Below are positions 1,018-14,724 of a DNA stretch of 37,394 bases, in pieces. A program made the position numbers and the translations under genes. Each line of letters opens with the position of its first letter. The first letter of the stretch is position 1. Under the pieces are notes generated by a model. The model saw nothing but the letters and a program-made list of their open reading frames with translations. It ran no database searches and was not told where the DNA came from. Origin of the DNA: an uncultured Alphaproteobacteria bacterium. Its GTDB lineage: Bacteria; Pseudomonadota; Alphaproteobacteria; Rhodobacterales; Rhodobacteraceae. The stretch covers positions 1-37,394 of the forward strand of contig CABZEG010000016.1 in assembly GCA_902524655.1 (NCBI GenBank). Reading direction: 5' to 3'.

Positions 1018-2253
1018 TTATTTTTTTTCATATAGTTTCTGTGTAAACAAGAGGAAAAAAGTTAAAATAGCGCAAATAGAGAGTGTCATAATAACCACGA
1101 TTGGTGTTCCGTCAAAAAATGTTGATGCTGAGCCACTAACTATCAGTGCGATAAATGTGGATAATGCCCCAATAACAGACGACGCATACCCAGCAATGTG
1201 TCCAAAGGGATTTATAGCTAAAGCATTTAAATTGCCAAAAATAAATCCAAAAAAAGAAAAACTCACCATTATAAATATAGAGAACCACGTTAAGTTAAAC
1301 GAGAGGTTATTGATCTGGTATATAAGATTAATTGACGTCCAGATCATTAATAGTAAAGAAAAAGTTTTAGCTAGCTTAACTGCACTAAATTGCCCTACAT
1401 ATCTTGAGTTTAAATATGACGATAGACCTAGCATGGAAGCAATAAGTGCAAAATATAAGGGAAATCTAGATCCAACGTCAAAATAATTAAAATAGAGCGG
1501 TTGGCATATGTTTATAAAAGTAAGTAAGCCTCCTAGGAGAAGGCCTAAACATGTTATATAAATCATTGAAGTTAAATTGCTCAAAACCTCTTTAAAGTGT
1601 TTTATAATAGCGAAGAGACTTATCCACCTCTTTTCCTTCAAGGTTTCTTCAACATTAACTAAAAGAAAGCTTGTTGTTATAAGTGAAAACAAGATAAAAA
1701 ACACGATAATATATTTCCAATAAAAGAAAAATAAAATGCCTTGGCCCAATAGCGGTGCAACAATAGGAACTAAGATAAAAATACTCATAATAAATGAGTT
1801 AATGCTTGCCAACCTATTCCCACTGAATAAATCTCGGCATATAGCCTGCGAAACAACTCTAGGTCCGCCGATTCCAAAACCTTGAATAAATCGTCCCAAC
1901 ACGAATATCGTATATGTGTTGCTTAAAAGGCAAATAAAACACCCAAGCCAGTAAATACTTACTCCTAGTAGTACTGAGTTTTTCCTACCTATACGGTCTG
2001 AAACAGGCCCAAATAGGATCTGACCTAATGAAAAGCCAAGAAATAAAGCTGTTATAATCCAATGCAAATCACGGTCATTAATTAGAAATTTATTTTTAAT
2101 TTCTGTATATGCAGGCAGTAAGGTATCTATTGAAAGAGCAACAAACGAAATCATTCCGGCAATAATAAAGCAAAAGAAATTATTAGAAATTTTCAGAATT
2201 TGCCTCCAGTAGATTAAAGAAAATGTTGTAGGAATATCTGTAGCGGAATACAC
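1018..2253 (-). CDS. MFS efflux transporter, Bcr/CflA type
   Basis: A 411-residue integral membrane protein with about twelve hydrophobic segments. The major facilitator motif A (GPVSDRIGRK, residues 82-91) follows the second segment, and RFIQGFGIGG with the following RVVSQAICRD matches the Bcr/CflA drug-proton antiporter subfamily. It would export a small molecule across the inner membrane; the substrate cannot be read from the sequence. The start is GTG at 2253, preceded by AAGGAA at good spacing, and no ATG lies upstream of the first membrane segment. It is divergent from the thioesterase-carboxylase operon with only 33 bases between the two start codons, so the two units may share control. 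The downstream end faces the DUF2256 gene. Confidence 0.85.
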   Translation of the reverse strand: MYSATDIPTTFSLIYWRQILKISNNFFCFIIAGMISFVALSIDTLLPAYTEIKNKFLINDRDLHWIITALFLGFSLGQILFGPVSDRIGRKNSVLLGVSIYWLGCFICLLSNTYTIFVLGRFIQGFGIGGPRVVSQAICRDLFSGNRLASINSFIMSIFILVPIVAPLLGQGILFFFYWKYIIVFFILFSLITTSFLLVNVEETLKEKRWISLFAIIKHFKEVLSNLTSMIYITCLGLLLGGLLTFINICQPLYFNYFDVGSRFPLYFALIASMLGLSSYLNSRYVGQFSAVKLAKTFSLLLMIWTSINLIYQINNLSFNLTWFSIFIMVSFSFFGFIFGNLNALAINPFGHIAGYASSVIGALSTFIALIVSGSASTFFDGTPIVVIMTLSICAILTFFLLFTQKLYEKK

Positions 2254-2286
2254 TTATTTCCTTATTAAGACAAGAGTTTCTAGCAA
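2254..2286. promoter_or_regulatory. Very short divergent intergenic region
   Basis: Only 33 bases separate the GTG of the efflux gene (minus) and the ATG of the thioesterase gene (plus). Promoters for both directions must overlap each other or extend into the coding sequences. I see a minus-strand ribosome site (AAGGAA) but no clear -10 or -35 box or operator palindrome, and no obvious plus-strand ribosome site. Confidence 0.35.
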
Positions 2287-2688
2287 ATGATTGAAAAAGC
2301 CCAAGATAATAAAAGTAACGCTGCTGAGTTCTTTAGTCTTAAATTAATTAAAGAGACTAAAGAGATGTATGTTTTTTCAGTAATTTTTCCTCAAGCTTCA
2401 AAAAATATTTATGGTGGAGTACAAGGAGGAATGATTTCTGCTGCGATGGATGAAGCAACTTTTGTTAGTATTTTGCGAAGCCAAGAAAATATTAAAAAAG
2501 TAAGCAGTACAAACCATCACGTGTTATTCCATAAACCAGTATTGCTTGGTGAAAATAAAATCGAAACTAAATTTAAAAAAATTGGCAAAAGAGTTATTAA
2601 TATTGAAGGAAATATTTATAGTGCTGATGGCGAGTTAGCAGCTACACTTATACATTCTACTTCAATTATTAGATCAAGTGAGGGATAA
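2287..2688 (+). CDS. Hotdog-fold thioesterase, PaaI-like
   Basis: A 133-residue single-domain protein. The stretch YGGVQGGMISAAMDEA (about residues 41-57) is the PaaI/4HBT hotdog signature, with the acidic residue of MDEA in the position of the usual catalytic acid. Such enzymes hydrolyse acyl-CoA or hydroxyacyl-CoA thioesters in the cytoplasm, often to rescue CoA from dead-end intermediates. It is the first gene of a four-gene plus-strand cluster and ends one base before the ATG of the SDR gene, which argues for co-transcription. A thioesterase beside an acyl-CoA carboxylase and an SDR fits a CoA-linked catabolic pathway, but its exact substrate cannot be deduced. Confidence 0.83.
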   Translation: MIEKAQDNKSNAAEFFSLKLIKETKEMYVFSVIFPQASKNIYGGVQGGMISAAMDEATFVSILRSQENIKKVSSTNHHVLFHKPVLLGENKIETKFKKIGKRVINIEGNIYSADGELAATLIHSTSIIRSSEG

Positions 2689-2689
2689 A

Positions 2690-3556
2690 ATGAACTTTAA
2701 GGAGAAAACTGTTTTTATAACTGGAGGAAGTAGGGGCATAGGGCTAGAAGTAGTAAAAAAATTGGCGATTGACGGTGCCAACATAATTATAGCTGCAAAA
2801 ACAACAGAACCTCATCCAAAACTACCTGGAACAATTTTTACTGCTGCAAAAGAGATCGAAGAATTAGGTGGCAATTGCCTTCCTTTAGAGTGTGATATTC
2901 GTTTCGAAGATAATGTCGTCGCCACAGTGGAGAAAGGCGTGAAGCAATTTGGAGGAATTGACATTTGTATAAATAACGCCAGTGCTATAGTTCCTTTCCC
3001 AACCGGATCCGTTGACATGAAGAAATATGACCTGATGCAAGACATCAATACTAGAGGAACTTTTTTAGTATCAAAAACGTGTTTGCCTTATCTAAGGAAA
3101 AGTGATCATGCACACATATTAACTTTTTCTCCTCCTCTGGATCTAGATGATAAGTGGTTTGCACCACATGTTGCTTATACGATTTCTAAAATGGGTATGA
3201 GTTTGCTAACACTTGGGCACGCACGAGAGTTCAAAAAATTTGCAATCGGAGTAAACTCACTCTGGCCTTTAACTGCTATTGATACAGCAGCTGTAAGAAA
3301 TGTTCTGGGTGGAGAAAATACTGCAAAAAGTAGTCGAGATGTTAGTATAATGGCCGATGCAGCATATGAAATTTTAAGTAAAGATCCAAAATCTTGTACA
3401 GGTAATTTTTTCATTGATGAGGTTGTTTTGAGAAACGCGGGCGAAACTGATTTTGAAAAATATCGTATTTCAGATAATGAACTAATTAGAGATTTTTTTG
3501 TTCCCGATGATGTGGCAAACGAATTACCAACAAAAACAGTTACTATCTACAAATGA
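2690..3556 (+). CDS. Short-chain dehydrogenase, HSDL2/citronellol-dehydrogenase-like
   Basis: A 288-residue classical-type SDR. The Rossmann motif TGGSRGIG lies at residues 11-18, NNAS follows the cofactor domain, and the catalytic Tyr-x-x-x-Lys is Y163/K167 in YTISK. The segment AAKTTEPHPKLPGTI and the SPPLDLD stretch around the catalytic serine are typical of the HSDL2 group, which also includes the AtuB-like enzymes of acyclic terpene degradation. It would oxidise or reduce a hydroxy/keto group using NAD(P). I chose ATG 2690 rather than GTG 2678 because GAGGGA stands just upstream of the ATG and because the protein then starts in the standard way. It lies between the thioesterase and the carboxylase in one operon. 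Confidence 0.85.
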   Translation: MNFKEKTVFITGGSRGIGLEVVKKLAIDGANIIIAAKTTEPHPKLPGTIFTAAKEIEELGGNCLPLECDIRFEDNVVATVEKGVKQFGGIDICINNASAIVPFPTGSVDMKKYDLMQDINTRGTFLVSKTCLPYLRKSDHAHILTFSPPLDLDDKWFAPHVAYTISKMGMSLLTLGHAREFKKFAIGVNSLWPLTAIDTAAVRNVLGGENTAKSSRDVSIMADAAYEILSKDPKSCTGNFFIDEVVLRNAGETDFEKYRISDNELIRDFFVPDDVANELPTKTVTIYK

Positions 3557-3586
3557 TATAACAATGTATCTTTTAAAGAGTGTTCT

Positions 3587-6500
3587 ATGACTATTATAAA
3601 TTCAGTTTTAATTGCTAATAGAGGCGAAATAGCTATTAGGATTTCTAAGACCTTGAACGAGATGGGGATAAAGGCTTATGGGATTTATAGTAAAGATGAT
3701 AGTTCAAGTGCACATCTTTCGTATTGCTCTGAAGTATTTGAATTAAACGGTACAGGACCTTCTGCGTACCTAAATATTGATGAGATCATATCTCTCGCAA
3801 AAAGTAAAAAAATTAAGGCTGTGCATCCTGGATATGGGTTTTTGAGTGAAAACCATGCATTTGCCGCTAGTTGTGCAAAGAATGACATCATTTTTATAGG
3901 CCCAAATGAAAAAACATTAAAAAATTTTGGTAATAAAGAAAAAGCAAAAAAAATAGCTCAAAAATTAGGGATACCTATATGCTCTTCATCGGGGCCAATA
4001 CAAAAAAAATCAGATATCCTGAGTTTTTTTAATGAGATAAAAAAAAATAAAATAATCTTAAAAGCAAATTTTGGTGGTGGGGGAAGAGGATCAAGAATAA
4101 TTCATAAAAAAGATGATTTTTCTGAAGTATTTTCTTTAGTAAAAGAAGAAGCAAAGTCATTTTCTGGCTCTAATTTAATTTTTGCAGAGGAGGTAATTGA
4201 AGAGGCTAGACATATTGAGGTTCAAATTTTGGGTGATGGACAATCGTGTATTCATCTTTTCGAAAGAGATTGTTCCTTTCAAAGAAGTTTTCAAAAATTT
4301 ATCGAATTTTGTCCCGCACCAAATCTTTCAAGCCAAGCTAAAGATAAGCTATATAATTATGCAATTAGTTTGTGCGAAAGTGTTGCTTACAAAGGTTTGG
4401 GCACAGTTGAATTTTTGGTCGATAAAAATGAAAAAATCTATTTCATGGAAGTTAATCCAAGGGTGCAGGTAGAGCATACTATTACAGAAGAACTTACTGG
4501 AATTGATCTCATACGATCCCAGATCAGCGTTTTCAATGGAAAATCTCTTAAGGATCAGAATATTAAAGCGGGAATTGTGTTAGGAAAGCGTGCTTCAATA
4601 CAGGCTAGGCTTAATATGGAAAGCTATGATAACAAAAACCAACTTGTTCCAACAACCGGAACTATAAAAGAGTATGATATTGTTTCCGGTCCTGGAATAC
4701 GGATTGATGGTGCAGGAAAAGTTGGCTATATAAATAATGGTCTTTACGACTCATTGCTTGCTAAAGTTATTGCTACTAGCGAATTTGGTTTGGGTGAGGC
4801 TGTAAGAAAGCTAGATTTTACTTTAAGAATGTCTAATATTTCAGGAGTAGAGACAAATAAAAATTTAATTATCGAGATATTGCGACAAGAAGTCCCTCAA
4901 AACGGATCGGTAAATATTTCTACAATTGATAATCATATCGAAGTTTATCTTCAAAAACTGAATAGAGATACCCAAATAGGCGTCCAAGAGAATAATAAAA
5001 ATGAAATTCCTAACAGGCCTCTAATAAATAGCGCTTTAACAGAGAACACAATTCAATCTGAGCTTGTTGGTACAGTAATAGACATAAAGGTATTGCCAAA
5101 TAAAAAGATTAAGCAAGGAGATACTGTCCTAGTTCAGGAATCTATGAAAATGCATCATCCTATTAAAGCCAACGCAAATGGATTCGTATCAAACTTTTTT
5201 GTTGATATTGGAGATACTGTTTCAACAGGATCACCTCTTTTTGAATTCATTCCTGAAAAAGAAAGTAGCCAAAAAAAACTGACGAAAGGCAAGTCAAAAA
5301 AGTCAAAAAAAATGAGAGGAGATCTCGAAAATCTTTTGGAAAGAAGGAAGCTTACATTAGATAAAAGTAGGCCCATAGCAGTTAAAAAAAGGAAAAAAAT
5401 TGGGAAAAGAACTGCTAGAGAGAATATAAAGTCTTTAATTGGCAATAATGACTTTTTTGAGTATGGGGATCTGGTTTATGCGGCACAACGATCGAGAAGA
5501 TCGCTTGATGATCTGATAAAAAATACTCCCGCAGATGGATTAATAACAGGTTTGAGCTATGTAAACTCGGATTTGTTTGCCAAAGAACAAACTAAGACTG
5601 CAATTATGCACTACGACTATATGGTTCTAGCAGGAACGCAGGGTATAAATAATCATAAGAAGCTAGATAGAATGATTGATGTTATTAGAGGTTTAAAAGT
5701 TCCTTTGATATTTTTCTGTGAAGGGGGAGGAGGGAGACCAGGAGATGTTGATGCAGGAGATCAAAATATCGCTGGTTTGAACATTCCTTCTTTTCATGAT
5801 TTTGCGCGTCTTTCTGGAGAAGTGCCGTTAGTTGGAATTGGTTCAGGTAGGCTTTTTGCGGGTAATGCTGCTTTATTGGGTTGCTGTGATGTAATAATCG
5901 GTACAAGAGATCTTAATCTGGGTATGGGTGGCCCAGCAATGATTGAGGGAGGAGGGTTAGGAGTGTACAAACCCGAAGAGGTTGGTCCAACAAGCGTTCA
6001 ATATCCCAATGGTGTTATTGATATTTTAGTTGATAACGAGGATGATGCTATTGTAATAGCAAAAAAATATTTATCATATTTTCAGGGAAACCTAGGCTCT
6101 TGGGAAGCTCCTGCTGTAGAAAATTTAAGGTACGTTATTCCTGAAAATAGGTTGGAGGTTTATGATATTAGGGAGGTTATTGATAATATTGCTGATATAG
6201 GCTCTGTATTGGAAATAAAGGCTGGTTTTGCAAAGGGTATGTTCACAGGCTTTATAAGAGTTAAAGGTAAGCCGTTGGGATTAATTGCAAATAATCCACT
6301 ATTTTTGGCTGGGGCGATAGACAGTGATGGAGCGGATAAGGCTTCTAGATTTATTAAATTATGTGAAAATTATAATATTCCTATATTAAGTCTTTGTGAT
6401 ACTCCCGGCATGATGGTGGGCCCTGAAATTGAAGAGACTGGCCTTGTACGCCACTGTTGTCGCTTATTTCTAGCGGGAGCTAATGTAACGGTACCAATGA

Positions 6501-6871
6501 TGACCATTGTCTTAAGAAAAGCTTATGGCCTTGGAGCACAAGCAATGGCTGGTGGCAGTTTTATGGCACCACAATTTGTTGTGGGTTGGCCAACCGCTGA
6601 GATTGGAGCTATGGGTTTGGAAGGTGCTGTTAAGTTAGGGTACAGAAAAGAGCTAGAAGCAGAAAGTGACGCAGAGAAGAAAGAAAAGCTTTTTAAAAAA
6701 TTAGTTGATGACCTTTATGAAAAAGGAAAGGCAATTAATGCCGCAAGCTTGTTAGAATTTGATACAGTTCTAGATCCTATAGAATCTCGTGATTGGATAT
6801 CTATGGTAGTAGAAAGTCCTATTAATAGTTCTGAAAAAGTCCCAAAAAACAGGTATATAGATTCCTGGTAA
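3587..6871 (+). CDS. Single-chain acyl-CoA carboxylase (BC-BCCP-CT fusion)
   Basis: A 1094-residue biotin-dependent carboxylase with all parts in one chain. Residues 1 to about 450 are biotin carboxylase, with the ATP-grasp glycine loop FGGGGRGS and the active-site block FMEVNPRVQVEHTITEE. Residues about 488-555 are the biotin carrier domain, with the biotinylated lysine K521 in ESMKMHHPI. A lysine-rich linker (about 555-580) leads to a carboxyltransferase of the acyl-CoA carboxylase beta type, with FFCEGGGGRPGDVD in the N half and AMAGGSFMAPQFVVGWPTAE in the C half. The order and length match the single-chain long-chain acyl-CoA carboxylases described from mycobacteria and pseudomonads. It carboxylates an acyl-CoA using ATP and bicarbonate; chain length or branching is unknown. 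The second Glu of the usual KxIEEAP motif is Phe here (KFIEFCPAP). Its operon partners point to catabolism. Confidence 0.93.
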   Translation: MTIINSVLIANRGEIAIRISKTLNEMGIKAYGIYSKDDSSSAHLSYCSEVFELNGTGPSAYLNIDEIISLAKSKKIKAVHPGYGFLSENHAFAASCAKNDIIFIGPNEKTLKNFGNKEKAKKIAQKLGIPICSSSGPIQKKSDILSFFNEIKKNKIILKANFGGGGRGSRIIHKKDDFSEVFSLVKEEAKSFSGSNLIFAEEVIEEARHIEVQILGDGQSCIHLFERDCSFQRSFQKFIEFCPAPNLSSQAKDKLYNYAISLCESVAYKGLGTVEFLVDKNEKIYFMEVNPRVQVEHTITEELTGIDLIRSQISVFNGKSLKDQNIKAGIVLGKRASIQARLNMESYDNKNQLVPTTGTIKEYDIVSGPGIRIDGAGKVGYINNGLYDSLLAKVIATSEFGLGEAVRKLDFTLRMSNISGVETNKNLIIEILRQEVPQNGSVNISTIDNHIEVYLQKLNRDTQIGVQENNKNEIPNRPLINSALTENTIQSELVGTVIDIKVLPNKKIKQGDTVLVQESMKMHHPIKANANGFVSNFFVDIGDTVSTGSPLFEFIPEKESSQKKLTKGKSKKSKKMRGDLENLLERRKLTLDKSRPIAVKKRKKIGKRTARENIKSLIGNNDFFEYGDLVYAAQRSRRSLDDLIKNTPADGLITGLSYVNSDLFAKEQTKTAIMHYDYMVLAGTQGINNHKKLDRMIDVIRGLKVPLIFFCEGGGGRPGDVDAGDQNIAGLNIPSFHDFARLSGEVPLVGIGSGRLFAGNAALLGCCDVIIGTRDLNLGMGGPAMIEGGGLGVYKPEEVGPTSVQYPNGVIDILVDNEDDAIVIAKKYLSYFQGNLGSWEAPAVENLRYVIPENRLEVYDIREVIDNIADIGSVLEIKAGFAKGMFTGFIRVKGKPLGLIANNPLFLAGAIDSDGADKASRFIKLCENYNIPILSLCDTPGMMVGPEIEETGLVRHCCRLFLAGANVTVPMMTIVLRKAYGLGAQAMAGGSFMAPQFVVGWPTAEIGAMGLEGAVKLGYRKELEAESDAEKKEKLFKKLVDDLYEKGKAINAASLLEFDTVLDPIESRDWISMVVESPINSSEKVPKNRYIDSW

Positions 6872-6900
6872 ATTAGGTTTTACATATTGGAAAGAGAAAA

Positions 6901-7950
6901 ATGAGCAGAAATGATCAAGAATTAATAGCTCCTTTGGAAAAACATAAATTCAACACCGATAATCTAGTGACATGGATGGAGTCCAATGAGATAGAGAGCA
7001 CAGGATTAAAGGTAAAGCAGTTTCAAGGAGGAATGTCTAACCCAACTTTTTTTCTTGAGAGTGAAAACAATAAATATGTCTTAAGGAAAAAACCTCCAGG
7101 AAAGCTGTTGCCAAAGGCACATGCGGTTGACAGAGAATTTAAAGTAATGAACGCTCTTGGAAAAATAGATTTCCCTGTGCCTAAGATGCTTGGTTTTTGT
7201 GATAACCCGAGTGTGATAGGTACTGAATTTTTTATAATGGACTACATAGACGGCAGAATAATTACAACTCCGGGAATAAATGGATTCTCAAAAAATGAAA
7301 GAAACACCATCTGCGTATCTTTAGCAGAGACGCTAGCCAAACTGCACAATGTAGATTACAAATCAATCGGCCTCGAGTCTTTTGGAAGACCAGAAGGCTA
7401 CATCCAGCGTCAAATAAAATTATGGTCTGATCAATTCCAAAGATCAAAAGAAGATATTACTGTAAAGGCCAACTTTAAAGAAATGGATTTACTTAGTATA
7501 TGGCTTAAAGAAAATTCTATCATTGAGGATGAATTTGCTATTGCCCACGGTGACTACCGATTAGGTAATACGATAATTGATAAAAATAACTCAACAGTGA
7601 TTGGTGTACTTGATTGGGAATTATCAACATTGGGCCACCCCTTAGCTGATCTGGGTTATTATTGTATCCCCTACCGATATGGGTTTGAAGACTTAAATCT
7701 AAAACAACTGGGTATACCCTCTGAAGAAGAATTTCTTGAACTATATATGAAGTTTTCAGGTAGAAGCTCAATTCCGAATTGGCCTCTATTTTTATCATTC
7801 GCTCTTTTTCGTAGTGCGGCGATTATTTTTGGAGTAGCTGCTAGAACCCTGCTTGGAAATGTTAGCTCAGAAAGCTCTAATGTCTTTGAGCAAATAAAAA
7901 GAGCGGAAGATATGGCTCGAATTGGCTATAGTATTTGCTCCAACTCTTAA
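6901..7950 (+). CDS. APH-fold phosphotransferase, ACAD10-like kinase
   Basis: A 349-residue protein of the aminoglycoside phosphotransferase/choline kinase fold. Visible motifs are QGGMSNPTFFL in the nucleotide-binding lobe, the Brenner motif HGDYRLGN (H216-D218 to N223), and the metal-binding LDWE with the following LGHPLADLGYY. This arrangement is that of the kinase domain of ACAD10/ACAD11 and of stand-alone bacterial homologues that act with acyl-CoA dehydrogenases, where phosphorylation of a hydroxyacyl-CoA precedes dehydration. Here there is no acyl-CoA dehydrogenase next to it; it follows the fused carboxylase by 29 bases. A GGAAAGAG ribosome site supports the ATG. I infer that it phosphorylates a hydroxyl group of a CoA-linked substrate rather than an antibiotic. 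Confidence 0.85.
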   Translation: MSRNDQELIAPLEKHKFNTDNLVTWMESNEIESTGLKVKQFQGGMSNPTFFLESENNKYVLRKKPPGKLLPKAHAVDREFKVMNALGKIDFPVPKMLGFCDNPSVIGTEFFIMDYIDGRIITTPGINGFSKNERNTICVSLAETLAKLHNVDYKSIGLESFGRPEGYIQRQIKLWSDQFQRSKEDITVKANFKEMDLLSIWLKENSIIEDEFAIAHGDYRLGNTIIDKNNSTVIGVLDWELSTLGHPLADLGYYCIPYRYGFEDLNLKQLGIPSEEEFLELYMKFSGRSSIPNWPLFLSFALFRSAAIIFGVAARTLLGNVSSESSNVFEQIKRAEDMARIGYSICSNS

Positions 7951-7964
7951 AATATTTTTATAAC

Positions 7965-9155
7965 TCAAAGTGGTGGCCAACAAGTTTGTTTTAGGTTATT
8001 GTCTCTTTGGTACAGGCCTATTGCACGCCTTGTTTTGTACCCTATTAGACCGTCTATGCCACCCGTGTAATATTTTCTAGATAGCTTTTCCTGTATACTT
8101 ATTATTTCATTTTTTGTTAAATTTTCGGTTGCTTTCCAATTTTTAAAAAAGTTGTGGCTGTTATATTTAATTTTGTCTGCAATGAACCCAACAGATAAAG
8201 CATATAAATCGGAGTTATTGTATTCTTTAAGTGTATAAAAGTTCTTGCTTACTAAATAAATAGGTCCGTGTATTCCAGCCGGAAACATCAAACTGTATGA
8301 CTCATTAAGATCATCTGGAGGAAATTCTTCTCCCTTAAATCTTGATGCTCCTAGCTTTTTCCACTGTCTCAAGCTTCTTGAATGATCTGGTCCCTCTAGG
8401 TAGCAACTGATGCTGTTTGACAGTTGAACTTCATATCCCCATTCTAAGTTATTATCCCATCCAAACTGATGTAAATAGTTTGCAATAGAAGCCAATATAT
8501 CTGGCCGACTGTTCCATATGTCTTTATTTCCGTCATTATCATAATCTACAGCGAATTTAACAAGAGTGGAAGGTAGGAACTGAGGTTGTCCAAGAGCACC
8601 CGCTTTCGAAGCTTTTAAATATTTAATATTTATTTCATTTTCTATTGCAAAATCAATTAGATAAACAAGCTCATTTAAGTAACCTAGTCTATTTGATGAT
8701 GAAAAGCTGAGTAGAGATAGTACTTGAAGACTGTCTAGCCTTGGCCTAACTCTTCCAAAGAATGTCTCGTTAGCCCATATAGCAAGCAAAAAATGTCTAT
8801 CTACTTCATATAAATTTTCGATATTTTCTAATATTTTTTGAAGGCTTTTTTTATATTTTTTGCCTACTTTGGTTTTTTGTAAAATTAGTTTTTTATTGAA
8901 ATACTTTGCAGGATCAGAAAACTCAGCCTGCTCGTTTTTATTGAGTAACCTTTTTAATTTTATCACAGAGCCTATGTTGTCTTTGAGATGCGTTTCAATT
9001 TCACCAATAATTTTATGGCTATTAAATTTTTGCTGGAGTTTTGGTAGCAAAAACTTATCCAGCCAGTATTCATACACTTTTGTACTCTGCGGAAAAATAG
9101 GTGCCGGTAAGGATATGAAAATTATACACAAAATAATTTTGAAAGTGTTCTTCAA
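7965..9155 (-). CDS. Lytic murein transglycosylase, MltB family
   Basis: A 396-residue exported protein that cleaves peptidoglycan glycan strands in the periplasm. It begins with a signal peptide (about residues 1-23, hydrophobic core IILCIIFISLPAPIFP). The catalytic glutamate is E130 in AIWANETFFGR, followed by GALGQPQFLPST and DIWNSRPDILASIANYL, all typical of the MltB/SLT_2 family. A C-terminal putative peptidoglycan-binding domain (about 335-396) includes YYTGGIDGLIGYKTRRAI. There is no lipobox cysteine, so it is probably soluble. The start is TTG, overlapping the TGA of the upstream SDR gene (TTGA); no ATG exists before the signal peptide, and no clear ribosome site is seen, so translational coupling is likely. 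It converges on the kinase gene with a 14-base gap. Confidence 0.9.
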   Translation of the reverse strand: MKNTFKIILCIIFISLPAPIFPQSTKVYEYWLDKFLLPKLQQKFNSHKIIGEIETHLKDNIGSVIKLKRLLNKNEQAEFSDPAKYFNKKLILQKTKVGKKYKKSLQKILENIENLYEVDRHFLLAIWANETFFGRVRPRLDSLQVLSLLSFSSSNRLGYLNELVYLIDFAIENEINIKYLKASKAGALGQPQFLPSTLVKFAVDYDNDGNKDIWNSRPDILASIANYLHQFGWDNNLEWGYEVQLSNSISCYLEGPDHSRSLRQWKKLGASRFKGEEFPPDDLNESYSLMFPAGIHGPIYLVSKNFYTLKEYNNSDLYALSVGFIADKIKYNSHNFFKNWKATENLTKNEIISIQEKLSRKYYTGGIDGLIGYKTRRAIGLYQRDNNLKQTCWPPL

Positions 9156-10163: not shown

Positions 10164-12482
10164 ATGATAGAGGCTTGGTCAAATCAAGTAATTAAGAATA
10201 GAATTTTCATACTTATAGTAACAGTTTTACTGATTTTAGTGTCAGTTTTTTCTATCTCTAAAAACCCTATAGGGGTTAATAATTCAAATGAAATGTGGTT
10301 CCTTGAAGGCGATCCAACGCTTTTAGCTCATGATAAAATGAGAGATCTATTTGGAAGCACTGAGTCTCTAGTTGTCGGTATAGAAGCGAGACCAAAAGAT
10401 AAAGACCTTTTCAATCTTGAAACTGTAAAGATGATTGAAGAAATTCATGCAATGTTGGAAGAACATGAGGTGGTTGAGAAGGTTGATAGTCTAGCCAGAT
10501 ATCAGAGGACATATAATCGAGGTGGGGTTGTTGCTACAGACTATATTTTCGAGGACATAGAGAATTTAGATGATAATTTAGATCAATTAGACACGGCTAG
10601 GATTGCCATGCAGGATGAAAACCTAGCGCTCGACACCCTTATAAGCAAAGATTTTAGGCATACCAGAATAATTGCAAGAACGGAATATATTGTTAACGGA
10701 CTTGATCACAAGCTTAAAGTTGTAATGGATTTACGTAACTTTATAAGTGAGATGGGATATTTGGAAAAGGGATATGATATAAAGTTTGGAGGACAACCGG
10801 TTTTAAATGAACGTTTCACCGTAATCAGTAACTCAGATGCCGCTTGGCTAAATCCTACTGTTGCTGCTATAATGATGATTGTCTTAGGCATTGTTTTTAG
10901 GTCTTTGACCGGTATTTTGGCTCCCTGGGTCGTTATTGGTACAGCAGTCACAATGATGACCGGTTTACAAGCGTATCTTGGCTATAATATAACGCCAGTA
11001 AACCAAGCTTTAATTCCTATCACAATGTTGTTAGGTATGGCGTGCACGGTTCACGTTATGTCTGAGTTTTATAGCTTAAGAACTCTTTCCAAGCACACAG
11101 CTTTAGACGCATCTAAAGAATTAATAAAAAACCTTTTTAAGCCTATATTCTTTACGCAATTCACCACTTCAATTGGATTTGCTGCGCTGTATATAACAAA
11201 ATTATCCCCTGTGCGTGAGTTTTCGTTGCTAGCAACGATACTACCAATGATTATTTTTATTCTCTCAATGACTTCGTTGCCTGCTGCTTTATCGTTTTTA
11301 AACAGACTCTCACCAGCTACGAAGAAAGCTTATGACAATGATTGGCTTACACGTGTGACCTCCAGTCTTCCAAACTTTTCCTACAAAAATAGATTTAGTA
11401 TTTTAATGGTGGGACTGCTATTCATCTCTGTAAGCTTTTTTAGCGCAACCTACATTAAAGTTGATACGAATATTTTTAAATTTTTTAAAAGTGATCTCAA
11501 AATATCAGAAGACTTGAGGTATTTTGATAGAGAGTTTAAAGGATCATCAAATATTGATATGATGCTAGACTCTGAATTAGAAGAGGGGATTAAAGAGCCC
11601 AGCTTTCTCACAAAACTTGACGCTCTCGAGGCTTTTCTTGAAAAACAAGAAAAGTCAGGGAAAATAGTCGGTTATCTGGATCAACTTAAGCAAATCAGGA
11701 AGGCGTTTTCAGATAACAAAAAAGAGTTTTACAAAATACCAGATAGTAAACCCATGACTAGCCAGCTTTTGTTATTGTTCGAAAACTCAGGTCCTGATGA
11801 TGACCTTTCAGATATTAAAGATTTTGATGAGCGATTTACGAGAATAACTTTACCGACAATTAATATGGATGCTAGTGAATATAATCAGTTTCTGGATGAT
11901 ATGATGCAAACAATAAACAAAGATTTTCCAGACTTGAATGTTACTCCTACCGGTCCAATGGTAATGTTTCAAGCTCAAAATGAGTATACCGATAAAGGGA
12001 TTAGCCAATCATTCATGCTTTCATTAACCTTTATAAGTGTTGTTCTTTTTATTATCTTTTGGTCTATTAAACATGGCGCGATTGCCGTGTTCCCAGCAGT
12101 CGTTCCAATAGTTTTTGCTGGTGGATGTTTTGCAATGTTGGGTAAGGATTTGAATTTGGGATCATTAATAGTGGGGGCTATGACAATGGGTATTGCCATT
12201 GATGACTGTATTCATGTCGTCAGTAGATATAAGTTAGCGAGATCTCTAGGAAGTTCCGTAGAACACTCAATAAAGAGAGCTATGACAGAGTCAGGAAGAG
12301 CCATTATCACTACGTCATTGGCGCTTGTTATTGGGTTCAGCACTTTTTTGTTTGCACGTTTAGTACCTATGATTGATATTGGATGGCTCACCACTGTGAT
12401 TTTTACTTTGGCTTTGTTAGGGTGCCTATTGTTTATACCCGCGCTACTCTTTATATTCGAAAAAGAAGAAAAACCCACCTAA
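10164..12482 (+). CDS. RND/MMPL-superfamily exporter
   Basis: A 772-residue inner-membrane protein with the RND layout: one membrane segment, a large periplasmic domain (about residues 35-225), five membrane segments, then a repeat of this plan with a second periplasmic domain (about 430-610). The segment MGMAIDDCIHVVSRYK in the second half and TMLLGMACTVHVMSEF in the first are equivalent intramembrane acidic or polar motifs of the MMPL/HpnN type. It is shorter than drug-pump RND proteins (about 1000 residues) and fits the lipid-exporting branch. It is preceded by a strong GGAGGAG ribosome site. The two genes behind it encode a LolA-like periplasmic protein and an outer-membrane barrel, so the three probably move a lipid or hydrophobic compound between the membranes. 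The cargo is unknown. Confidence 0.88.
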   Translation: MIEAWSNQVIKNRIFILIVTVLLILVSVFSISKNPIGVNNSNEMWFLEGDPTLLAHDKMRDLFGSTESLVVGIEARPKDKDLFNLETVKMIEEIHAMLEEHEVVEKVDSLARYQRTYNRGGVVATDYIFEDIENLDDNLDQLDTARIAMQDENLALDTLISKDFRHTRIIARTEYIVNGLDHKLKVVMDLRNFISEMGYLEKGYDIKFGGQPVLNERFTVISNSDAAWLNPTVAAIMMIVLGIVFRSLTGILAPWVVIGTAVTMMTGLQAYLGYNITPVNQALIPITMLLGMACTVHVMSEFYSLRTLSKHTALDASKELIKNLFKPIFFTQFTTSIGFAALYITKLSPVREFSLLATILPMIIFILSMTSLPAALSFLNRLSPATKKAYDNDWLTRVTSSLPNFSYKNRFSILMVGLLFISVSFFSATYIKVDTNIFKFFKSDLKISEDLRYFDREFKGSSNIDMMLDSELEEGIKEPSFLTKLDALEAFLEKQEKSGKIVGYLDQLKQIRKAFSDNKKEFYKIPDSKPMTSQLLLLFENSGPDDDLSDIKDFDERFTRITLPTINMDASEYNQFLDDMMQTINKDFPDLNVTPTGPMVMFQAQNEYTDKGISQSFMLSLTFISVVLFIIFWSIKHGAIAVFPAVVPIVFAGGCFAMLGKDLNLGSLIVGAMTMGIAIDDCIHVVSRYKLARSLGSSVEHSIKRAMTESGRAIITTSLALVIGFSTFLFARLVPMIDIGWLTTVIFTLALLGCLLFIPALLFIFEKEEKPT

Positions 12483-12502
12483 GCTTTGAGATTGATAATT
12501 AT

Positions 12503-13309
12503 ATGAACTTTAATATGATATTTCCAAAATACTTTTTGTTTTTTCTTGTGTTACTTTTCCCAAATGTATCTGTGTCCATGACCGCTTACGAGATCATGAA
12601 AAAAGTTGATCAGAGGTATACAGGAGAAACTATAGAGCAGACATCTACTCTTGTTTTGATCGACAAGAAAAATAGAAAAAGAGAGAGAAAACTAAAGGGT
12701 TTTACAAAAGAAGTTTCAACCGGAACAAAAAGCATCTCTTTTTTCTTGAGCCCTTCCGATGTGAAGAACACCTCCTATTTGTCTTACAACTGGGACGATC
12801 CGTCAAAAGATAATGACTCCTGGTTGTATCTCCCAAGTCTTCAAAAAACTAATAGGATTTCTGGTGGAGATCGGTCCAATTCTTTTATGGGTAGTGATTT
12901 TACATATGCTGATTTAGATGGAGTAGAAATTGAAGACTATACTTACAAAATTGTAAAAGATAGTGATGTAGTTGATGGTGCAGATTGTTGGGTAATTGAG
13001 GCTACACCAAAATCAAAAGATGTAATAAAGGAAACAGGTTACTTAAAAACACTTACTTGGATTAGAAAAGATATATTCTTTGGTGTCAAAGGCAGAATAC
13101 TTGTAAAAAAGGGAAAAAAAGTTAAGCTCTGGTCAGCAAAGGATATTAAAAAAATTGATGGTGTCTGGGTTGCAAAGACACAACAGATGACTACTACAAA
13201 AAAGAAAAAGCGTGAGCATTCAAGTATTTTTATTATTGACACAATAGCGTTCAATAAAAAATTAAATGATAGCTTGTTTGAATCCGAGGCCATGCAGCGA
13301 GGCTATTAA
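12503..13309 (+). CDS. LolA-like outer-membrane lipoprotein-sorting protein
   Basis: A 268-residue exported protein with a signal peptide (about residues 1-26) and a body of the 'outer membrane lipoprotein-sorting protein' LolA-like type: TAYEIMKKVDQRYTG at the start of the mature protein, then VLIDKKNRKRERKLKGF, DSWLYLPSLQKTNRISGGDRS and SFMGSDFTYADL. These blocks are characteristic of the group found beside MMPL/RND exporters. Such proteins bind lipid in a half-barrel and could hand it between the exporter and the outer membrane. The ORF could extend upstream into the exporter gene from 12383, but ATG 12503 directly precedes the signal peptide, only 20 bases after the exporter's stop. The ribosome site is weak, so coupling is possible. 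Confidence 0.85.
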   Translation: MNFNMIFPKYFLFFLVLLFPNVSVSMTAYEIMKKVDQRYTGETIEQTSTLVLIDKKNRKRERKLKGFTKEVSTGTKSISFFLSPSDVKNTSYLSYNWDDPSKDNDSWLYLPSLQKTNRISGGDRSNSFMGSDFTYADLDGVEIEDYTYKIVKDSDVVDGADCWVIEATPKSKDVIKETGYLKTLTWIRKDIFFGVKGRILVKKGKKVKLWSAKDIKKIDGVWVAKTQQMTTTKKKKREHSSIFIIDTIAFNKKLNDSLFESEAMQRGY

Positions 13310-13314
13310 TAAAC

Positions 13315-14724
13315 GTGTTCAGGCTCGTAAATTTACTCGTTTTTATTACATTTCTTTACTCGACAGTATATGCACAATCAGATGACGATTTCCTATCTGA
13401 TTTTGGTGGAGATGATTTCGAGGAAATAGAAAGTGAACTTGATATTGTTACAACGAATGTTGTTAAAGAAAAATTTTCTGACATTTCAATTGAAAAAAAA
13501 CAAACCAATGAAAGTTTTGATTGGGATGCTATTTTCTCTCAAAAGTTATACTATGGCCTTGAATCTCCAGCTGTCCCTTTTTTCAGGAGAGCTCCAGGGA
13601 TTGAGGCAATACATAGCAATATTAATTTAGGGTTAAATACAAAATTTGCGGAAGTTATTAACTTCAAGTTCTCTGGTGACGTCAATTGGGACTGGGGGTA
13701 TTTTGAAAGCTCTAAGTACTCTTATGGTCCTACAGCTGCAGATTTTAAGTTAAGAGATTTATACATTGACTTTTATCCAATCGATGGACTTTGGTTAAGA
13801 GTTGGGAATCAAATAATTGCGAGAGGAGAGTCAAACTTACTAATTTCAAGTGATATTACTAATCCAAGAGATCTATCTACTATTGGGCTGCAGGATCTGG
13901 ATGAAATAAGATTAAATATTCCCTCTATATTAGCTGGGTACAATATTGGTTCGTTAAAGCAAGAGATTATTGTTTTTTTGGATGAAAAAAGAAATAAAGT
14001 TGCAAGATCTGGAACGGCATTTGATCCTGAAGCTGCTTTTTTAGGTGCGTCAATAATTACCGATGTTTCTCCTGTGCAATATAATATAAGTTTCGCCTTA
14101 AGAAATAAAATCCTTTTATCGGGTTTTGAATTGGATTTGTCCTTAGGAGAATATAATAATAAGCAGTTATCAACATTGAGTTCCTCTGTGTCAGGAAATG
14201 TAACTACGCTTAGCACTCAGCAGGATAGAATAGCTTTCTTGGGTTTAAATGGTAATATTGCGATTTCAGACTTCGTTCTAAAATTCGATACCTCTCATAA
14301 AAAGGGAAAAAGATTTCCTTATTCCAACCCTTTGATAGGCCCTTGGTCTAAAAATGAGGTGTCTGAATTTTCTTTAGGCGCTGATTATTCTGGTCTTAAG
14401 GATTTGAACATAAGCATTGAATTAGCTAGTACATATATTCATGATCACGTTGCGCAAATGGTAAATAAGCAGAATGAATATGGATATAGTTTTAGGTTTG
14501 ATTGGAGATTGTATAACGATCTTTTAGATATTTCTCTGCAGCATGCAAATATTTTGGGAGATAATGGGAGTTTTTCATCAGTATCAGCGGTTTATGAATT
14601 AAGTGACAGCATCAATATTGGTAGCAAATTTATTTCCTTTGATAGCTATAGCAATAGTCAGCAATTATATCCCTACAGGCATCAAGATTTGATAGAGCTT
14701 ACACTAGATTACTATTTTAATTGA
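13315..14724 (+). CDS. Outer-membrane beta-barrel protein, DUF1302-like
   Basis: A 469-residue protein starting at GTG five bases after the LolA-like gene. It has a signal peptide (about residues 1-21, cleaved near YAQ), an acidic segment (SDDDFLSDFGGDDFEEIESE) and then alternating amphipathic strands to a C-terminal LTLDYYFN, ending in an aromatic residue as barrels do. LRDLYIDFYPIDGLWLRVGN with SSDITNPRDL matches the pattern of the DUF1302 family. It probably forms the outer-membrane component of the exporter module. Its last 8 bases overlap the end of the convergent SLC13 gene. The aspartate/glutamate-rich mature amino terminus may be a periplasmic contact segment; that is inference. Confidence 0.75.
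   Translation: MFRLVNLLVFITFLYSTVYAQSDDDFLSDFGGDDFEEIESELDIVTTNVVKEKFSDISIEKKQTNESFDWDAIFSQKLYYGLESPAVPFFRRAPGIEAIHSNINLGLNTKFAEVINFKFSGDVNWDWGYFESSKYSYGPTAADFKLRDLYIDFYPIDGLWLRVGNQIIARGESNLLISSDITNPRDLSTIGLQDLDEIRLNIPSILAGYNIGSLKQEIIVFLDEKRNKVARSGTAFDPEAAFLGASIITDVSPVQYNISFALRNKILLSGFELDLSLGEYNNKQLSTLSSSVSGNVTTLSTQQDRIAFLGLNGNIAISDFVLKFDTSHKKGKRFPYSNPLIGPWSKNEVSEFSLGADYSGLKDLNISIELASTYIHDHVAQMVNKQNEYGYSFRFDWRLYNDLLDISLQHANILGDNGSFSSVSAVYELSDSINIGSKFISFDSYSNSQQLYPYRHQDLIELTLDYYFN

Follow-up and report, generated by a model that had tools for sequence, protein, structure and literature searches.

The window analysed here is the 37,394-nucleotide contig CABZEG010000016.1 of an uncultured alphaproteobacterium of the Rhodobacteraceae (assembly GCA_902524655.1). 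It is contig C16 of a 1.77 Mb genome (G000) that is 71% complete. Positions 2287-7950 of the window carry four intact genes in tandem on the plus strand, which encode a thioesterase, a short-chain dehydrogenase/reductase (SDR), a single-chain carboxylase of the long-chain acyl-CoA carboxylase (LCC) type and a kinase of the type known from the acyl-CoA dehydrogenases (ACADs) ACAD10 and ACAD11. The four genes and their divergent neighbour are as follows.

2287..2688, plus strand: hotdog-fold thioesterase of the 4HBT type (GGVQGGMISAAMDEA), 133 amino acids (aa); Pfam 4HBT
2690..3556, plus strand: HSDL2-type SDR, 288 aa from the ATG at 2690; PRK08278, PDB 3kvo
3587..6871, plus strand: LCC-type single-chain biotin carboxylase - biotinyl - carboxyltransferase, 1094 aa; Pfam, PDB 4rcn
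6901..7950, plus strand: APH-fold kinase of the ACAD10/11 and LvaA type, a predicted 4-hydroxyacyl-CoA kinase, 349 aa; APH, PDB 8v3v
1018..2253, minus strand: divergent pump of the major facilitator superfamily (MFS), Bcr/CflA type, start codon uncertain; TIGR00710

The open reading frames (ORFs) of the set were called at 2287-2688, 2678-3556, 3587-6871 and 6901-7950. The second ORF runs from its first GTG and corresponds to 292 aa. Since genome G018 has a stop just upstream of the ATG at 2690, this ATG is most likely the start of the SDR, and a gap of 1 base is therefore left after the thioesterase. The following gaps are 30 and 29 bases, and all three are nearly equal in the relatives. The tight same-strand arrangement that an earlier note on this DNA had described was thus reproduced by the ORF calls and by the relatives. 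A scan of positions 2000-8300 showed no excess of promoter-like sites (12 against 21.2 expected) or of terminator-like sites (3 against 3.4 expected), and it is therefore the spacing on which the reading of the four genes as an operon is based.

The family names proposed earlier (hotdog thioesterase, HSDL2-type SDR, fusion of biotin carboxylase (BC), biotin carboxyl carrier protein and carboxyltransferase (CT), and APH-fold kinase) agreed with Pfam, NCBIfam and PDB matches. Judged by its scores, the thioesterase is the weakest assignment among the four, with 27.9 bits to Pfam 4HBT against a cut-off of 20.6. The pattern GGxxGGxIxxAxDxA was present in 19 of 20 thioesterase rows of the genus (15 genomes), the sole exception being that of L121, in which a C replaces one G. 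The thioesterases of the six relatives aligned were 64-95% identical to it. The SDR matched adh_short and gave 411.9 bits to PRK08278 (curated cut-off 250) and 295 bits to human HSDL2 (PDB 3kvo). It carries the Rossmann motif TGxxxGIG (as TGGSRGIG) and the YxxxK motif (as YTISK). No C-terminal SCP2 match was obtained with Pfam in the 288-aa protein, which was therefore filed only as an HSDL2-type SDR and not as HSDL2 proper. The endogenous ligands of HSDL2 itself are said to be unknown in the part of PMC11141617 that was available.

The carboxylase contains its Pfam domains in one chain, BC at residues 4-448, biotinyl at 494-553 and CT at 604-1087, and the SMKM motif is kept in the carboxylases of the genus. 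It gave 950 bits over residues 6-1073 to PDB 4rcn, a 'long-chain acyl-CoA carboxylase', and 569.5 bits to the CT chain 5fif. The single-chain acyl-CoA carboxylase of the earlier note is accordingly an enzyme of the LCC type. The CT domain scored 600.9 bits to LCC, 230.7 to the best propionyl-CoA carboxylase (PCC) chain, 142.1 to geranyl-CoA carboxylase (GCC) and 127.3 to methylcrotonyl-CoA carboxylase (MCC). Since PCC chains resemble it more closely than GCC or MCC chains do, carboxylation would be expected at the alpha carbon, which is the chemistry of this family. In the part of PMC6491548 that was available, LCC enzymes take C2 to C16 acyl-CoAs, the Km is far lower for palmitoyl-CoA than for acetyl-CoA, and the role of the enzymes, in carbon and nitrogen metabolism, is only proposed. 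LCCs found outside the genus were at most 47% identical to that of the window over the full length and up to 57% identical over the CT half alone. In a tree of 102 of 103 sequences (one was removed by the length/stop filter), the genus was monophyletic on a stem of 0.97 substitutions per site. The tree was midpoint-rooted, and the sister group of the genus is therefore meaningless.

Six Carboxyl_trans matches were found in the genome of the window, namely the LCC gene and one each on contigs C2, C24, C21, C13 and C1. The gene on C2 is PccB, with 916 bits to 3n6r, and adjoins a 665-aa biotin-carboxylase chain. The CT on C24 was closest to GCC (552.4 bits), followed by a chain named PCC beta (431.6 bits) and by MCCs (410-416 bits). 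Its neighbours (L337:38-5275) are a partial CoA ligase, an enoyl-CoA hydratase (ECH) that scored below every equivalog model, and a biotin-carboxylase chain. From this gene content, the C24 cluster is a possible acyclic terpene route in these bacteria. The frames on C13 (325 aa) and C1 (315 aa) look like AccA and AccD, judged from their length and from the part that was matched. Given the PCC on C2 and the GCC-like enzyme on C24, the LCC is therefore an additional carboxylase. For the same reason the operon is not a terpene or leucine locus, an identity that the earlier note had named as fatal to its proposal. The remaining match, on C21 (L338:3622-10241), is a 523-aa carboxyltransferase with 274 bits to mmdA, far below the cut-off. 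None of the nearby ORFs listed there is a biotin-carboxylase chain, and the run contains an ACAD and, by eye, MOSC, CobW-like and amidohydrolase genes.

The kinase gave 145.9 bits to Pfam APH (cut-off 23.2), 250 bits to the ACAD11 kinase domain in PDB 8v3v and 258 bits to 3dxp. Both HGDYRLGN at residue 216 and DWE at residue 238 are intact. With the ACAD11 score and with HGD..N and DWE kept, the assignment to the ACAD10/11 type was supported. We take these two motifs, together with SMKM, TGGSRGIG and YTISK, to be motifs of catalysis or cofactor binding. In the available part of PMC12440821, the catalytic Asp and the following Asn of ACAD11 are D220 and N225, and the arginines that hold CoA are R86 and R176. 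Equivalents of D220 and N225 are kept in the window kinase. The equivalent of R176, located by manual count, is conserved, and so is the Arg beside the alpha-C Glu, but the latter was counted at 84, not 86, on the printed chain.

Pfam detected no ACAD within the operon, and the kinase-adjacent ACAD with an HCMR motif, which is usual, though not defining, for the ACAD10/11-LvaA type, is not in it. The earlier note was therefore right that the partner is missing from the operon, but such an enzyme is encoded on contig C7 beside a second kinase, which rules out a true absence from the cell. Among eight ACADs found in the genome by PF00441, the C7 ACAD is the only one with HCMR. It also shares with ACAD10/11 the Arg that precedes this motif and the ADGPD segment (residue roles as given in the part of PMC12440821 that was available). 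Its scores were 440 bits to 4hr3 ('putative acyl-CoA dehydrogenase'), 401.7 bits to ACAD11 and 148.7 bits to the best medium-chain ACAD. The second kinase, which is 36% identical to the operon kinase, lies one gene away across a histidine phosphatase, and this phosphatase may be a partner. The surroundings (L140:31-10072) comprise thiolase, MaoC, nitronate monooxygenase, TesB, ECH, SDR and CoA ligase genes. According to the same part of PMC12440821, channelling of the phospho-intermediate is not required. With a kinase-ACAD pair of the ordinary type present on C7, it is therefore possible that the operon kinase could supply the C7 ACAD in trans.

Within the genus, the carboxylase was present in 18 of 21 other genomes; the three in which it was not detected (G005, G016 and G017) are 62-77% complete. 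The complete four-gene order was found in 14 of the 18, with gaps of 1-4, 30-42 and 23-31 bases. Here, complete means that at least 85% of each query gene was matched, and G006, in which a contig end cuts the kinase at 91%, is included. In the other four genomes the set meets a contig end, which cuts the kinase in G019 and the SDR in G010 and G021, while the thioesterase and SDR lie beyond the end in G020. In this last genome (L016:72-4434) the carboxylase and kinase matches change frame once each, for which sequencing error and decay are both possible causes. The lowest identities were those of G009, at 64% (thioesterase), 82% (SDR), 67% (LCC) and 69% (kinase). The pN/pS ratios between the window and L121 were 0.26, 0.07, 0.17 and 0.09 in the same order. 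The thioesterase gave 2.1 against L034, a ratio with very few changes behind it, and 0.22-0.37 in the other comparisons. The four genes are under purifying selection. The records of the genus include uncultured Alphaproteobacteria AG-916-C10 and AG-349-J18, which we take to be marine single-cell genomes, the marine habitat of the genus being assumed from these names.

The search for LCC covered 101 genomes (that of the window and relatives) and 378 genomes of the phylum, and 289 genomes of the class were searched for SDR, kinase, LCC and ACAD11-type genes. Plasmids were searched for LCC and SDR as well, and the contexts of six plasmid matches were read. On genome contigs, the best 80 of 577 LCC loci were confirmed, five of which belong to the genus. 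The 145 LCC regions obtained represent 143 distinct stretches (two loci occur twice), and 30 of them are flanked by less than 5 kb of sequence on one side or on both. Counts were made by six-frame tblastn, since gene callers picked shadow ORFs in some high-GC loci. For adjacency in the class sample, the thresholds were E 1e-75 for SDR and kinase, 1e-120 for LCC and 1e-100 for ACAD11-type genes. Of 53 class LCC places 47 were kept, the genome of the window and the five last rows being left out, and one G242 place was added to the ACAD11-type list from a separate region reading.

The four-gene set was not seen outside the genus, whether in its own family, in the 289 class genomes, in the 378 phylum genomes, on plasmids or among the best 80 of 577 LCC loci. 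The gene order that the earlier note had proposed to look for in relatives is thus complete in most genomes of the genus with a carboxylase, but in these searches it was not seen beyond the genus. Other genera of the same family have LCCs at 42-45% identity (G026, G048 and G059) or at 51% over the CT half (G101), and the 75 loci outside the genus among the best 80 of 577 were 42-47% identical. Among the titles listed in searches of the open-access literature, none described an LCC-kinase operon. The operon is a new combination of known enzyme kinds, specific to the genus, and it is not an artefact.

It had also been claimed that the lack of a partner ACAD sets the locus apart. Among the ACAD11 matches listed for the class, at least 36 of 102 kinase places had an ACAD11-type gene within 10 kb and 66 had none. 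Since most kinase relatives are without such a nearby gene, its absence here defines no new kind of kinase locus.

The 145 LCC regions contained no match to the window thioesterase and no HSDL2-type SDR, the best SDR match there reaching 85 bits and 32% identity against more than 260 bits for HSDL2-type relatives. The commonest immediate same-strand neighbour of LCC, among the query families tried, was an AMP-binding CoA ligase, which occurred in 12 of the 145. Clustering of neighbours also placed such a ligase first, 14 of its 26 members lying no more than 300 bases from LCC. The pairing was noted at L344:5265-10264 and L340:8001-16111 too, and LCC and ligase are accompanied by TRAP transporter genes in Pseudosulfitobacter and by urease genes in Deinococcus.

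A kinase and an ACAD11-like gene were close to LCC in three of the 145 regions, weak kinase matches in L060, L063 and L096 being excluded from the count. SO-S41 (L081:6896-13348) has SDR, kinase, ACAD (with HAMR, not HCMR) and LCC in a tight array on one strand. A Xanthobacteraceae metagenome-assembled genome (MAG; L091:8068-15994) has ligase, LCC, ACAD with HCMR and kinase. In a Micrococcales MAG (L105:210-13225), the order is ECH, ACAD (HCMR), SDR, kinase, further ACADs, thiolase, ligase and LCC, and the kinase and ACAD are 6-8 kb from LCC. As in the window, LCC and an APH kinase come together in these loci, with an ACAD11-like gene, within about 9 kb; unlike the window, they have another gene order, the ACAD in cis, and neither an HSDL2-type SDR nor a thioesterase matching that of the window. 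For the kinases of L081 and L105, identity to the window kinase is only 29-31%, and kinases this distant would therefore have gone uncounted under the strict thresholds of the class sample. In a further region, L104, an ACAD11-type gene lies 9 kb from LCC, and no kinase was seen there. Direct adjacency of LCC and an ACAD11-like gene was observed in two of the 145 regions, against well under 1 by chance (a rough estimate, not a computed control). This excess is no more than suggestive. We regard the three loci, which belong to unrelated bacteria, as a lead towards occasional cooperation between LCC and hydroxyacyl-CoA removal and as independent but sparse parallels, against which the class sample stands: none of its 47 LCC places has a kinase, SDR or listed ACAD11-type gene within 50 kb, and a distance of 100 kb brings in a kinase and an ACAD11-type gene at a single place.

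The SDR was followed separately in eight regions, seven of the ten best SDR places and G242. Four of them have an ACAD of some 600 aa upstream of the SDR, at a distance of no more than 4 kb, and in three the SDR adjoins a 4HBT_2 hotdog thioesterase, which is of another hotdog family than that of the window. The SDR of G242 comes last in the order kinase-ACAD11-SDR. That of G340 is about 4 kb from a match to biotin carboxylase (36%, 236 bits), with ECH and ACAD within about 7 kb. Three of 37 plasmid records were read for context: the relative in Alloyangia pacifica stands in the order thiolase-FadB-ACAD-SDR, that in Haematobacter massiliensis belongs to a beta-oxidation cluster, and that in Rhodococcus comes after an ACAD and a CoA transferase. 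L212 and L216 have a Sua5-like gene, the 600-aa ACAD, a metallo-beta-lactamase (MBL)-fold gene and the SDR, whereas contig C27 of the window's own genome (L143:4816-8638) has the first three without the SDR (Sua5 was identified by eye in each case). This difference suggests that the SDR may have left the Sua5-ACAD-MBL locus for the window operon.

On these grounds our preferred reading, to which we give a probability of roughly 0.4, is that of an operon, specific to the genus, which works alongside ordinary beta-oxidation and deals with acyl-CoAs that are oxidised (oxo- or hydroxy-) or awkward in other ways. The SDR would interconvert oxo- and hydroxyacyl-CoAs, and the kinase would phosphorylate the acyl-CoA hydroxyl, most likely at C4 as in the ACAD11/LvaA family. 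The ACAD11-type enzyme, whose gene is present on C7, could act in trans to turn the phospho-acyl-CoA into a 2-enoyl-CoA. The LCC, by analogy with its family, would carboxylate acyl-CoAs of medium or long chain at the alpha carbon, and the thioesterase might free CoA from dead-end or surplus acyl-CoAs. The carboxylase step, and its junction with the other steps, is the least certain part. A conserved locus in which LCC is linked to a hydroxyacyl-CoA kinase and an HSDL2-type SDR would place LCC and HSDL2 in a testable physiological setting, and the genus, if marine, would meet oxidised lipids. The operon would gain interest from evidence that LCC acts jointly with hydroxyacyl-CoA kinases. A stronger version would make LCC and the ACAD10/11-type kinase a recurrent, as yet undescribed unit, in which an oxidised long-chain acyl-CoA is reduced, phosphorylated, dehydroxylated and alpha-carboxylated to an alkylmalonyl-CoA, then disposed of by the thioesterase or by beta-oxidation, with the genus having fixed the unit without an ACAD in cis. 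We consider this unlikely.

Several observations weigh against the acyl-CoA-handling operon as one functional unit. The flanks also keep their order across the genus (Bcr-like pump, lytic transglycosylase, second SDR and MMPL transporter); these flanking genes are equally syntenic, and gene order is therefore weak evidence for one pathway. At 10 kb the class counts are unfavourable, with none of the 47 LCC places near a kinase or an SDR and one of 38 SDR places near a kinase. That one is G242, whose region was included among the eight SDR regions because the kinase adjoined the SDR. The SDR setting in G340 is nearer to a carboxylation pathway, the operon is without the AMP-binding CoA ligase, and the chain position modified by the kinase cannot be read from the sequence. 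The single route of phosphorylation, carboxylation and trimming put forward in the earlier note was not established by these results, since the genes are rarely or never neighbours outside the genus and the flanks are syntenic inside it.

The same facts favour an explanation without any single pathway, in which the genes of four independent acyl-CoA enzymes happen to have come under one promoter, the genome being small. The SDR would then serve ordinary beta-oxidation, the kinase would be a second copy of that on C7, and the carboxylase would have a substrate of its own. We consider this a serious possibility, though one short of even odds. The restriction of the set to the genus, the equally syntenic flanks and the C27 locus, which compared with L212 and L216 looks as if the SDR had moved, all fit it. 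It accounts less well for the spacing, as no complete copy, even at identities as low as 64-82%, has its genes more than 45 bases apart, and for SDR-kinase and LCC-kinase-ACAD11 neighbourhoods that recur elsewhere, if rarely. It is improbable that the operon serves a levulinate-like route, in which a short 4-oxoacyl-CoA would be reduced by the SDR and would lose its hydroxyl through the kinase and the C7 ACAD, and the carboxylase would take the resulting propionyl-CoA. The lva operon likewise has an SDR gene and leads to propionyl-CoA. Its kinase LvaA and its ACAD LvaC form a comparable pair (PMC12440821 and PMC11342911, each in the part available), but the window operon is without a CoA ligase, a propionyl-CoA carboxylase is encoded elsewhere, and the Km of LCC is far lower for palmitoyl-CoA than for acetyl-CoA, as reported in the available part of PMC6491548.

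Membership in the known acyclic-terpene (Atu) or leucine (Liu) carboxylation pathways is very improbable. AtuB and AtuG are SDRs. The Atu pathway, in the part of PMC4847356 that was available, has these two as citronellol/citronellal dehydrogenases and AtuC/F as a CoA carboxylase, and the SDR relative in G340 is near a biotin carboxylase, ECH and ACAD. The CT of the window is, however, far closer to LCC (600.9 bits) and PCC (230.7 bits) than to GCC or MCC. A separate GCC-like CT with ligase, ECH and BC chain exists on C24, and Pfam showed no ECH, ACAD or AtuA-like gene in the operon. The locus thus has no cluster of two-subunit GCC or MCC, lyase, hydratase and ACAD, and we rejected this assignment. 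The terpene link that the earlier note drew through AtuB-like SDRs was likewise not confirmed, as SDR relatives often stand in beta-oxidation operons and the GCC-like cluster is on another contig. Just as implausible is the proposal that this LCC serves the cell as its acetyl- or propionyl-CoA carboxylase, with the operon as housekeeping for fatty-acid synthesis or propionate. The range of LCC enzymes from C2 to C16 (PMC6491548, in the part available) would allow it, but PccB with its 665-aa BC chain on C2 and the AccA- and AccD-like frames on C13 and C1 speak against such a role, and we rejected it.

The operon was further compared with known systems. The kinase is of the same wider family as that of the lva operon of Pseudomonas putida (levulinate), a likeness at family level, and the genome encodes an ACAD that carries the special motif found in that system. 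In contrast to lva, the ACAD of the window system is in trans, and the operon is without a ligase and has an additional carboxylase and thioesterase. Compared with ACAD10 and ACAD11, which act in 4-hydroxy acid catabolism, the kinase is similar at 250 bits to the ACAD11 kinase domain but free-standing, not fused to an ACAD domain. The carboxylase has the same domain order in one chain as 4rcn and 5fif, while its long stem and the absence of an adjacent CoA ligase distinguish it from other LCCs. The SDR is well over the model cut-off for the HSDL2/PRK08278 SDRs of fatty-acid operons; several relatives follow thiolase-FadB-ACAD or ACAD-MBL genes, each with the 600-aa ACAD, whereas the window SDR stands after a thioesterase and before LCC.

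The divergent gene upstream encodes an MFS protein with 187.7 bits to the Bcr/CflA model TIGR00710, slightly below the cut-off of 200.9. It is on the minus strand, divergent as the earlier note had it, and keeps its place in those loci of the genus that extend far enough to include it, but the distance of 33 bases to the thioesterase hinges on an uncertain GTG start, and similarity over the first codons fades in L119, the most distant relative aligned. Downstream of the operon, positions 10164-14724 contain a row of an MMPL/HAE3 transporter, a LolA-like/DUF1329 protein and a DUF1302 protein, which is possibly a lipid or hydrophobe transport set.

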